Assembly (NCBI RefSeq): GCF_009882945.1
Contig: NZ_WTUY01000002.1
Span: 2,927 to 66,926, forward strand
Length of the DNA stretch: 64,000 bases
Reading direction: 5' to 3'
Source: Alcanivorax sp. DP30
Lineage (GTDB): Bacteria; Pseudomonadota; Gammaproteobacteria; Pseudomonadales; Alcanivoracaceae
Shown one piece after another: positions 3,161 through 62,744 of this stretch. The notes beneath the pieces are model-generated. The model made no database searches and was not told the origin of the DNA. It was given only the letters and a program-made list of their open reading frames with translations. Position 1 is the stretch's first letter, and each line of letters starts with the position of its first letter. A program made the translations under genes and the position numbers.

Positions 3161-3194
3161 GTCCGGCGTCAGGCTGCGGTGTCAGGCGTTATAC
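3161..3194. repeat. Heptamer-period array downstream of fadA (site L)
   Basis: On the plus strand GTCCGGC, GTCAGGC, a 6-nt slip, GTCAGGC and GTTATAC follow in near-perfect 7-nt phase. Read with fadA the words are GCCTGAC-like. The array begins 8 nt from the fadA stop codon. Confidence 0.6.
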
Positions 3195-3202
3195 ACGTTC
3201 GC

Positions 3203-4378
3203 TTACACGCGCTCAATGACGGTAGCGATGCCCTGACCCAGACCGATACACATGGTGGCCAGGCCGTACTTGCCGCCTTTCCATTCCAGTACGTTCAGCA
3301 GGGTGCCGGTGATACGCGAACCGGAGCAGCCCAGCGGGTGACCCAGGGCGATGGCGCCGCCGTTCAGGTTCACTTTCTGGTCGGCCACGTCCAGCAGCTT
3401 CAGGTCCTTCATGACGGGCAGGGACTGGGCGGCGAACGCTTCGTTCAGCTCCACGTAGTCGATGTCGTCGATGGTAAGGCCTGCACGTGCCAGTGCCTTC
3501 TGGGTGGCCGGTACGGGACCGTAACCCATGATTGCAGCGTCGCAGCCGGCTACGGCCATGGAAACGATCCGCGCGCGGGGCTTGAGGCCCATTTCTTCGG
3601 CCTTGGCGGCGCTCATGACCAGCATGGCGGACGCACCATCAGACAGGGCAGAGGCGGTACCGGCAGTGACAGTGCCGTTGGCCGGATCGAACACCGGACG
3701 CAGTTTCTGCATGTCGGCCAGGGTGGCACCGGGACGGATCACTTCGTCGATTTCACACAGGACCTTGTTGCCTTCCTGATCGTGACCTTCGATGGGAACG
3801 ATCTCGTTCTTCCAGCGACCTTCCTGGGTGGCTTCCCAGGCCAGGCGGTGGGAACGCACACCGAACTCGTCCTGCTGCTCACGGGTGATGCCGTGCATCT
3901 TGCCGAGCATTTCCGCGGTCAGGCCCATCATGTTGGAGGCCTTGGCGGTAACCTTGGAGATCTCCGGGTTGATGTCTACACCGTGATCCATGGCCACGTG
4001 CCCCATGTGCTCCACACCACCGATGACGAACACGTCGCCGTTGCCGGTCTGGATGGCCTGGGCAGCGGAGTGCAGGGCCTGCATGGAAGAACCACACAGA
4101 CGGTTCACGGTTTGCGCGGCGCTGGTGCGCGGCAGGCCGGCCAGCATGGCGATGTTACGGGCGATGTTCATGCCCTGTTCTTTGGTCTGGTTTACACAGC
4201 CCCAGATCACGTCTTCGGTCTGCTGGATGTCCCAGCTGGGGTTACGCTCCATGAGCGCTTCGATCAGCAGGGCAGACAGTTTTTCGGCACGCACGTGACG
4301 GAACTGGCCATTACGGCTCTTGCCCATGGGAGTACGGACCGCGTCGACGATTACTACGTCATTAGGATTCAAACTCAT
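3203..4378 (-). CDS. fadA: 3-ketoacyl-CoA thiolase (fatty acid oxidation complex beta subunit)
   Basis: FadA performs the last step of each beta-oxidation round, thiolysis of 3-ketoacyl-CoA to acetyl-CoA plus a shortened acyl-CoA, as the beta subunit of the cytoplasmic FadB2A2 complex. Visible: the nucleophile Cys in [12 protein letters not shown], the GGVEHMG segment, the catalytic His in [12 protein letters not shown] and the second Cys in CIGLGQG. The length (391 aa) matches the family. ATG 4378 follows AAGGAG at proper spacing; the longer reading frame upstream has no support. It lies 26 nt downstream of fadB in one operon and ends just before heptamer site L and a strong terminator. Confidence 0.97.
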
Positions 4379-4404
4379 TTCTCTAACTCCTTTCAGTCCG
4401 TGGC

Positions 4405-61072: not shown

Positions 61073-61098
61073 CCGGACAGGCCTGCGCGCAACGCCTC

Positions 61099-62457
61099 TT
61101 ACGCTGCCGTTTCTTCCGTGGTGGGCGTGTACTGCGTGGCATCGGTGGTGTATTCGGCGTGGCCGTATTCCACCAGAAGATCCTTGATGCGCTTGACCAG
61201 GAATTTGTCCGCCACCTTGTTGGCGACAGGGATATCCTGGAGGACCCGGAAGGCGGTCAGGCGTGGTAGCACGAACAGATTACCCACGGAGAACAGGGCA
61301 TAGTCCAGCAGGTGAGGCTCCACACCCATTTCCTTAGCTTTGGACTTGTCCTTGCGGCCAAGGAAAGCCTCAGTAAAGAAAACCTTCGAATAGCTGCGCT
61401 CCACCGCATTGTGGATTTTGCTAAGCAGCTTCTTGTCCTTGGGACGGTACACGGACATGGTGGTACGGGTCAGTTCGCCACAGGTTTCGTCGTCATAGCC
61501 TTCTCGCAGGGTACCCGAGTAGGTGAGCATGGTGTCGATGATGTCTTTCGCCCTGGCTGGCAGTAGCTCTTCCGGCAGGCCCAGCAGGAAACACTCGTAG
61601 CGGGACAGTTCCACGATGGCGCGTTCCTGAGGGGTGAATTCCGTACGCCCCTTGCGCATGGCCTTGAAAGCGGTCAGGTAGGCGGGCATGGTGCCGGCGG
61701 GCATCTGGTCCACCTGGGGAATGGGGATGCCATAGACAGCCGGGTCCCAGGGGCCACCTTTGTCAGGCGTAGAGCGCTTGAGAATGTTGAAACGCACCAT
61801 GGAATGCATCAGGCGAACCATGGCGGCGGCCTTGAAGCCGGGACCAAAGCGCTCCAGTGCACCTGGCAAGGTGGCGGTGGTAAAGAAACTGGACGTTTCG
61901 TTGATGCGTTGGTTCACGGACTCGTTGGCCAGGGTGCCGGTGATCGCCATGGGCAGGCCCGAGTACTTGTTCATGAAGGTGGCCACAAAGGCGCCACGGA
62001 TCACCCAGGGCGCCAGATTCGCCATCTGGTTACGGCTCAGACGGGCGCCTTCGCGCACCAGTTCCATGTCCACCCATTCCGGGGTGTCTTCCATGGCCTG
62101 GATGAAATTCACCAGTTCCGGGGGGGCGTTTCCCACGGCGTCCAGCCCTTCATCGCAGGCTTTCTTCAGCATGGTAATCAGGTTGCGGAAGCCGTACTTG
62201 GGCATCAGTGCGGCATAGGCATCTGACACGGTGTCTCCGAGCAGGGTATAGGCCCGCGCCCGTTCCACCTTTTCTTGGTCGGCCAGAATATCGCTGCGGT
62301 ACTTGCTGGCGAATTTCTGCGGTAGAGCACTGCGTACGTTGATGTCATCAGTGAAGCGCTCAGGGGTGGCATCGAAATCGATGTCGCCGTAGAGAGAGGG
62401 GATCAGGGTTTTCTGTGCACGCACCTTTTCCCAGAGTGCTTCCAGAGATTGGGACAT
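61099..62457 (-). CDS. DUF2236 (MpaB/Lcp-like) oxygenase-family protein
   Basis: 452 aa. Related to the DUF2236 / MpaB_Lcp_cat family, whose studied member (latex-clearing protein) is a b-type haem oxygenase. The conserved block is GFKAAAMVRLMHSMVRF, with Arg and His of the family near residue 225, and a following helical core (VELSRYECFLLGLPEELLP). No signal peptide. ATG 62457 has GAGG upstream; an in-frame ATG is 11 codons further up. Substrate unknown. Confidence 0.75.
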   Translation of the reverse strand: MSQSLEALWEKVRAQKTLIPSLYGDIDFDATPERFTDDINVRSALPQKFASKYRSDILADQEKVERARAYTLLGDTVSDAYAALMPKYGFRNLITMLKKACDEGLDAVGNAPPELVNFIQAMEDTPEWVDMELVREGARLSRNQMANLAPWVIRGAFVATFMNKYSGLPMAITGTLANESVNQRINETSSFFTTATLPGALERFGPGFKAAAMVRLMHSMVRFNILKRSTPDKGGPWDPAVYGIPIPQVDQMPAGTMPAYLTAFKAMRKGRTEFTPQERAIVELSRYECFLLGLPEELLPARAKDIIDTMLTYSGTLREGYDDETCGELTRTTMSVYRPKDKKLLSKIHNAVERSYSKVFFTEAFLGRKDKSKAKEMGVEPHLLDYALFSVGNLFVLPRLTAFRVLQDIPVANKVADKFLVKRIKDLLVEYGHAEYTTDATQYTPTTEETAA

Positions 62458-62601
62458 TATGGCCTCGGCATTAACACGGGTTTGGTGCATACATAGCGTT
62501 TACTGGGCCGGGCTGACAATGACCGAAAATTGTAGAGCTGGAACTCACGGGTTTTTGGCCTGTAATGACGGCAAAAAAGAAACATACGGCTGGAAAGTGT
62601 T

Positions 62602-62744
62602 GAGCTACGAGCTACGAGCTACGAGCTACGAGCTACGAGCTACGAGCTACGAGCTACGCTCGATCGGATAGGAAGAACCAAAAAGGTTCCCCTGGTTTTG
62701 CCTTTCGAAACTCGCTTCTCGCAACTCGAAACTCATTCCTCGCC
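62602..62744. repeat. Heptamer-period element, site K, with 8 perfect GAGCTAC copies
   Basis: Left array: eight contiguous copies of GAGCTAC (62602-62657). Right arm (62703-62744): TTTCGAA, ACTCGCT, TCTCGCA, ACTCGAA, ACTCATT, CCTCGCC, which in reverse complement reads GAGNNNC words. The core has AACC / GGTT arms with GGTTTTGC. A REP-like GCAGGCAAGCTCCTG follows at 62760. It fills the gap between the DUF2236 and HD-domain genes. Confidence 0.85.

Follow-up and report, generated by a model that had tools for sequence, protein, structure and literature searches.

Intergenic heptamer arrays of an Alcanivorax genome as probable arms of a two-armed element family with a gene-bearing PF05635 form

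The 64-kb stretch of DNA analysed here (the window) is part of the genome of Alcanivorax sp. DP30 (G000 in our sample; 3.62 Mb in 24 contigs) and contains intergenic arrays of 7-nt units, the word of which changes from site to site. The best named match of its LysS, at 91% identity, comes from an Alcanivoracaceae MAG, and the comparison covered 16 other genomes of its genus. The arrays probably are the arms of small elements that make up one family. Its gene-bearing form codes for a four-helix-bundle protein of Pfam family PF05635 (IVP/S23p). In that form about four heptads stand inverted and close on each side of the PF05635 gene, each protein clade having its own word, and many of the gene-flanking words recur in copies without an open reading frame (ORF) at the 3' ends of genes. 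The arrays of the window would be such copies without the gene, together forming a population of REPIN type that is linked to an IVP protein resident in the genome, the binding and dispersal being steps that we infer. A preliminary description of the window had recorded the arrays; the PF05635 gene carrying arms of the same design is the piece that was missing from it.

Among the collected loci, eight pairs of same-class arms lie 360-3003 nt apart, and three of them (arms 386-412 nt apart, in genomes G005, G007 and G002) enclose an ORF of 118 aa that matches PF05635 / TIGR02436, four helix bundle protein, with E about 2e-25 and 89-90 bits at a cut-off of 33.8. Nearly all of the first 30 PF05635 loci had heptads on at least one side, including words new to the survey. 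The flanks were then scored in 107 loci by the presence of a lag-7 array (at least 14 of 21 positions matching) within 200 nt of the gene, thresholds chosen after those 30 loci had been inspected. The loci comprise 48 from Alcanivoracaceae, 50 from other Pseudomonadota and 9 from plasmids, L298 having been dropped from 108 for want of an ORF. For the 50 distant loci a draw of 398 genomes across the phylum was used, together with the relative G026; PF05635 score or position in the hit list, and not the flanks, decided which were taken, and 20 of them were hand-picked down that list without exhausting it. Of 23 plasmid records with a PF05635 match, 9 supplied loci.

Both flanks carry lag-7 arrays in 41 of the 48 Alcanivoracaceae loci, 27 of the 50 other Pseudomonadota and 5 of the 9 plasmid loci, one flank only in 5, 19 and 2, and neither in 2, 4 and 2, respectively. 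Other lags (4, 5, 8, 10, 11, 13) passed on both sides in 0, 2 and 3 loci of the same sets, mostly at lag 8, and on one side in 2, 4 and 1. Control genes passed on both sides in 29 and on one side in 216 of 912 cases, the corresponding numbers within the distant loci being 0 and 2 of 42. The best lag between 4 and 13 was 7 in 169 of 214 flanks, 8 in eight and another in five, with two ties and 30 flanks scoring below 14. Moreover, the arms match better inverted than direct in 68 of 73 loci, with direct ahead in 4 and one tie, and an arm matches its own partner at 18.1 of 21 positions, compared to 12.6 (highest 13.4) for shuffled partners. The plasmids with arrays on both flanks belong to Nostoc (twice), Pseudanabaena, Calothrix and Geminocystis; it must be mentioned that in 3 of the 9 plasmids other lags also pass on both sides (two at lag 8, one in purine-rich DNA) and that the Pseudanabaena arms are apparently direct, not inverted. 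At four PF05635 loci the arms have period 8 instead of 7 (L317, L331, L381 from Gemmatirosa and L382 from Picosynechococcus). PF05635-type genes were also seen amid CRISPR genes, in the orders cas6-IVP-cas4 (L377, Pseudanabaena plasmid) and cas10-IVP-cmr3 (L382, Picosynechococcus plasmid).

The distribution of the gene points in the same direction. PF05635 is found over the cut-off in 23 of 57 relatives, with 16 of the 17 genomes of the genus positive, the exception being G015, which has 3 array-pattern hits in all. Relatives counted as array-rich when one of four patterns gave five or more exact hits; these possess the gene in 20 of 23 cases, the others in 3 of 34 (p=2e-9, uncorrected for kinship). 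In the phylum-wide sample 58 of 398 genomes passed the cut-off. The only PDB match of the IVP protein is 2gsc, with five chains of XCC0516.

The excess of period 7 over shuffled sequence, on which the preliminary description depended, is genuine. In 398,811 bases of G000 (20 evenly spaced stretches from three contigs) 33 lag-7 islands were counted, i.e. 21-nt segments in which 16 or more positions match at lag 7, versus 0 in an order-3 Markov resample. Lags 4, 5, 8, 10, 11, 13, 16, 17 and 19 gave 0-1 islands each and the triplet lags 6, 9, 12, 15 and 18 gave 0-9, whereas the multiples of 7 gave 14 (lag 14) and 10 (lag 21). It extends to relatives, since two sister chromosomes have 36 and 91 islands per 400 kb with 0-3 at eight control lags. 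By proportion from 55 islands in 463 kb, G000 would hold about 430. In three genomes, with at least 15 of 21 matches and genes called by our own gene caller, 214 of 216 islands lie outside called genes; their density per kb is 1.42-2.57 in convergent, 0.96-1.99 in tandem and 0.12-0.58 in divergent spacers, the nearest stop codon is a median of 5-20 nt away, and 129 of the 216 have a second island within 300 nt. The inverted second array reported for many sites was recovered as well, in 42 neighbouring pairs at 41 loci, most of them inverted and a few mixed-word or chance. The contig ends G000:C14:5, G000:C15:6 and that of G000:C21 lie within long GAGCTAC or CAAGCTA arrays, so these long arrays break the G000 assembly.

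The sites of the window are listed below; P values compare the best lag-7 score per 200 nt with 5000 order-3 Markov stretches modelled on window intergenic DNA and are uncorrected.

3161-3189: short D2-type array (GTCCGGC GTCAGGC ... GTCAGGC), seen in the sequence, directly beyond the stop codon of the minus-strand gene 3203-4378; P=0.09 alone
6950-6979: E-type array (GTTGCGG GTTGCGT GCAGCGT GAGGCGT), a lag-7 island additional to the twelve sites first described
7048-7140: weak C-type two-armed stretch, seen in the sequence; P=0.25 alone
8954-9032: C-type two-armed element (CGAGTTTCGAAAACC ... GGTTTTGCTTTTCGAAAC...CTCGTTACT), seen in the sequence; P=0.03
11779-11900: D-type (GTCNGAC) element with two arms, between prfB and lysS, where relatives have different words or none; P=0.0002
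36351-36470: C-type two-armed element (GTTGCGAGGGACGAGTTTC ... CTCGCAACTCGCAAC); P=0.03
41261-41374: A-type (YARTKRA) two-armed element, flanked by two plus-strand genes; P=0.0002
43577-43650: C-type two-armed stretch, seen in the sequence; P=0.09 alone
45472-45754: B-type (AGCTNCA) arm, followed 210 nt on by an inverted but weaker one; P=0.0012
48214-48249: D2-type array beyond the 3' end of the minus-strand gene 48256-51177; P=0.0002
51221-51255: E-type array (GTGTTAC GTGTTAC GTGAGGC GTGCAAC); P=0.0012
51864-51895: D2-type array; P=0.03
62591-62741: expanded B'-type arm of 8 perfect GAGCTAC copies opposite a C-type arm; P<=0.0012

All twelve sites of the preliminary description are visible by eye; six (11782, 41261, 45484, 48222, 51226, 62602) reach P<=0.0012 and three (8954, 36351, 51866) P=0.03, while those at 3161, 7048 and 43577 are not significant. 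Its central observation, a constant period under changing words, stands with AGCTNCA, AGCTNCG, AGTTNCG, AGTTNAA, YARTKRA, GTCNGRC, GTGNNNC and others, but the proposed G-N5-C form fits only loosely, the actual words including AGCTNCA and YARTKRA. A further class is AGTTNCA, and AGTTNAA has ten paired elements in G007. None of the 402 ORFs of the window matches PF05635, and Rfam gave 0 matches above the gathering score in the window plus five loci (145,596 bases). REP-like (repetitive extragenic palindromic) palindromes of the GTAGGAGCTTGCCTGCAAGC type, likely GTAG-tagged REPs, occur at about 7021-7041 and 48180-48205 and in many relatives; they adjoin many arrays and lie inside some elements. 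Inside the large ORF 48256-51177 a 219-nt unit is repeated 2.5 times (48859-49415).

Class A is the best-defined class. Its units, YARTKRA, mostly number four per arm, and the arms are spaced 100-116 nt apart in 56 of 76 distinct pairs, usually with a CGCG beside each arm and with a central hairpin GAGGCCGCGCCCA-n4-TGGGCGCGGCCTC. Arms that adjoin a stop codon start at a median of 0 nt from it. Within the unit, A2, T4 and A7 are nearly invariant and position 6 is G or A. This position is uniform within the arm in 167 of 176 scattered arms (shuffle mean 105.9, highest 118, of 178); G and A arms are both present within a single genome. At position 5 uniformity falls short of the random expectation (13, 34.6 expected, lowest shuffle 20). 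The other classes have different centres, a GCCGCG...CGCGGC core being shared by 2 of 6 AGCTNCA pairs. Of 57 elements collected, 39 entered the alignment. The consensus fold has a central GC hairpin, with pair-keeping double changes in 15 of 35 pairs. One G005 element entered twice into the shuffles given above, the collection of 57, the matching of arms within elements and the measurements at stop codons and in tandem spacers; the counts of 76 pairs and 176 arms are free of this duplication. Pairing of the arms as a stem is unsupported as a constraint in 47 usable class-A elements, although RNAalifold draws that stem, in our reading because of shared subfamily letters. A comparison of linkers with arms is biased because the elements were selected by their arms. 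Three-frame stop codons as the cause of period 7 were discarded, since in our reading the sense strands of AGCTNCA and AGTTNCG are without stops.

Word and protein go together. With words assigned by ourselves and one gene counted twice, IVP proteins sharing a word have a median identity of 78% (minimum 48, 44 pairs), those with different words 31% (maximum 88, 452 pairs), the maximum belonging to the sister words AGCTNCG and AGCTNTG. Furthermore, position 6 splits the 17 distinct class-A IVP proteins perfectly into 10 with G and 7 with A (L297, with too few units, was dropped), and G315 and G318, both from the same other genus, fall on opposite sides; however, because this is a single split on the tree, the association counts as one event and not many. 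Where the genome has a G6 protein, scattered arms number 36 G and 55 A, and where it has an A6 protein, 4 G and 71 A (mixed arms left out, arms not independent; p=6e-8 in a count that included one element twice).

The IVP genes of Alcanivoracaceae sit at shared loci. When the outer flanks were linked by blastn (both sides, at least 150 nt), the 47 Alcanivoracaceae loci with long enough flanks fell into groups of 16, 15, 7, 3, 2, 2, 1 and 1, so that the 48 loci are not independent. In G000 group 1 lies between glyA and nrdR, group 2 beside a CitMHS transporter gene and group 3 between ahcY and metK, and IVP genes are common to the same loci across two genera. The word at the CitMHS locus is AGCTNCA in G000, G001, G004 and G010, AGCTNCG in G006, G008 and G013, AGTTNCG in G003, G011, G012 and G014, AGTTNAA in G007 and G018, AGTTNCA in G002 and CAGGRTN in G318; at ahcY-metK it is GTCNGAC in four genomes and of CACGC type in three (by eye, partly below threshold). 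Since the loci are shared and the words differ, the gene-bearing copies of Alcanivoracaceae are residents rather than recent arrivals, with words changing in place. The same replacement of words between sister species, which the preliminary description had proposed to look for, was found in other spacers. Between prfB and lysS the arms of relatives are GTCTGACGTCGGA or of GACGCC type, or are absent, and another spacer, comparable in 12 genomes, has AGCTNCA arms in G009, YARTKRA arms in seven genomes, a decayed AGCT array in G015 and no recognised arms in G014, G016 and G018. Arrays directly before lysS were also seen in a Pseudomonas, a Halomonas, a Chromohalobacter and another gammaproteobacterium (L031, L037, L063, L072; 4 of 79 named loci). 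The class-B pattern occurs in 1 of 274 genomes of the class (its own) and, in a looser form, in 10 of 194 genomes of the order. In G002 (L129:1715-3780) a gene reading like a di-haem peroxidase, with orthologues in G001, G013 and G010, stands between two pieces of a class-A element; the locus has similar lengths in G001 and G013 and a single element in G009, G012 and G004. The elements may serve as joints for gene gain or loss.

Three other explanations have to be weighed. Ordinary long simple sequence repeats, i.e. heptamers grown from many seeds by polymerase slippage and tolerated between genes, are a very improbable account of the family. Heptanucleotides are reported as the commonest category of long repeats in the majority of genomes examined, and a polymerase-based explanation has been offered (Mrazek 2007, cited in PMC4679880); long perfect arrays do exist: those of more than five units are perfect or nearly so, with equal neighbours in 22 of 25 cases in class A, 19/19 in B, 78/78 in B', 12/12 in D and 20/20 in D2, and look as slippage would make them. 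For the short arms, independent slippage of different seeds, as the preliminary description had offered, is not supported. Neighbours in arms of 2-5 units avoid the same free letter: in class A they agree in 163 of 517 cases (279.9 expected; minimum over 1000 shuffles 252) and in class F in 4 of 68 (22.0 expected, lowest shuffle 11). Class D leans to avoidance (6 of 58, expected 14.1, lowest shuffle 5), no clear effect is seen in B (15/51, expected 17.0), C (4/17, 5.7) and D2 (3/19, 5.8), and B' shows the opposite trend (12 of 14, expected 8.9). Nor does slippage fit with one position differing in all units at once, with the 100-116 nt spacing of most class-A pairs, or with such arms flanking one gene family. 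Loss of the hairpin nuclease SbcD was rejected as a cause: it scored over the cut-off in 6 of 57 relatives and in none of the 17 of the genus, and most array-poor relatives lack it too. A strand bias with replication was also rejected; the sampled long GAGCTAC-type arrays followed GC skew, but over the whole genome the positions C20:733 kb, C21:316 kb and C22:401 kb break the pattern.

MITE-like transposons, with the arms as terminal repeats for a transposase and the IVP gene as passenger or accessory, appear quite unlikely. They would explain dispersed copies with conserved arms and centre, and in tandem spacers the two arms show equal conservation (26.5 and 26.2 of 28, n=21, p=0.53), which argues for a symmetric, DNA-level role. 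On the other hand, no clean empty site with a target duplication was seen in spacers too diverged for one, the IVP genes occupy the same loci in two genera, and three of the eight wider arm pairs hold PF05635, while the five genes called in two others belong to no transposase family (one to no family at all), no genome-wide transposase search having been made. Somewhat better placed, but still unlikely, are selected RNA signals at 3' ends, bidirectional terminators or mRNA-protecting hairpins with the arms as stem. The bias towards convergent spacers, the class-A arms beginning at stop codons and the double changes in the consensus fold fit such signals, as does one convergent spacer where, judged by eye, an ordinary intrinsic terminator takes the place of the arms in G006 and G015. 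However, T-tailed terminators stand at 42 of 121 array-adjoining gene ends and at 83 of 270 ends without arrays (three genomes), the arms of one element do not co-vary, and a 3' location fits equally any insertion that avoids promoters.

A family of elements tied to the IVP protein also has to face results that weigh against it. At the threshold used, 23 of the 50 distant loci are without one or both arms. Arms within one element match no better than across elements (0.800 versus 0.784; highest of 200, 0.814), and intrinsic T-tailed terminators are no commoner beside arrays in the three genomes. The 170-nt elements share, in our reading, their arms but not their inner sequence with the gene-bearing form, and the compared IVP loci, the spacers of which are too far diverged, showed neither a clean empty site nor a target duplication. 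Genes and words also disagree in places. The four IVP genes of G000 comprise two with B words, one D and one A-G6; no gene fits the B', C, E or D2 arrays of this genome, whose class-A arms are A6 in 9 of 11 cases and mixed in 2, though its class-A protein is G6. Genomes with a G6 protein generally carry many A6 arms. G005 has many B arrays and a sole IVP gene of class A; its lysS is split into two overlapping frames (G005:C1:151892-153378), so the assembly may hold frameshifts and the IVP count may be low. No PF05635 match was obtained in G019 and G316, with many D arrays, or in G022, with many C arrays. The mismatches in G000, in G019, G316 and G022 and in the G6 genomes with A6 arms would be relics or lag.

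Several known systems resemble the present one in part. The gene-bearing copies are, like the intervening sequences (IVSs) of 23S rRNA, a PF05635 ORF between inverted terminal repeats. As reported in PMC4990558, the Coxiella burnetii IVS has a 28-bp terminal stem, with two or three tandem GACAGAT heptamers and a GACAGAA before the S23p ORF, and is excised by RNase III; the same paper cites the Xanthomonas homopentamer and ascribes no known function to S23p/IVP proteins. In contrast to IVSs, which lie inside 23S rRNA helices and are cut by RNase III, the three examined G000 loci are between or beside protein genes, and the present family has many words and many ORF-less copies. In REPIN-RAYT systems a resident Y1 transposase gene at a fixed locus is flanked by sequence that is also dispersed, mostly between genes. 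Here, too, dispersed intergenic copies match repeats flanking a resident gene, apart from the words without a matching gene, but the gene is PF05635 rather than a Y1 transposase (no RAYT search was made) and the arms are heptad arrays with changing words. The Avd protein of diversity-generating retroelements is likewise a four-helix bundle; the bAvd Pfam model scored weakly on L277 (20.1 bits, cut-off 40), and no reverse transcriptase search was made. The TAACTGA heptads of Beggiatoaceae are intergenic direct repeats as well, but of a single word mostly directly before start codons, with 169 direct sets and one indirect repeat (PMC4679880). In the open-licence literature searched no paper links PF05635 genes with heptamer arms, the Coxiella paper (PMC4990558) being a partial exception.

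Taken as a mechanism, the IVP protein (five chains in one solved relative) would read the heptads as repeated sites, the constant letters being read and the free letter not; the ORF-less elements would depend on it for their dispersal or maintenance, as REPINs do on RAYTs, and long perfect arrays would be later slippage of one arm. Tentatively, and with the balance slightly against so broad a claim, this could be a second, independent partnership of the REPIN-RAYT kind, in which a resident four-helix-bundle protein without known enzyme activity reads words, keeps some hundreds of elements at gene ends and swaps its word together with its sites over time. Such a partnership would be old because arms flank PF05635 in many Pseudomonadota and in cyanobacterial plasmids, and the rRNA IVSs would be copies that landed in rRNA. 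For PF05635, a widespread family of unknown function, the heptad arms are a first testable partner and give binding assays a definite pair, the protein on one side and on the other a spelled-out 7-letter word that changes. The arms also suggest an origin for some of the heptamer-repeat excess that has long been noted in bacteria, and they form a system in which a protein and numerous dispersed sites seem to go through a one-letter change in step.

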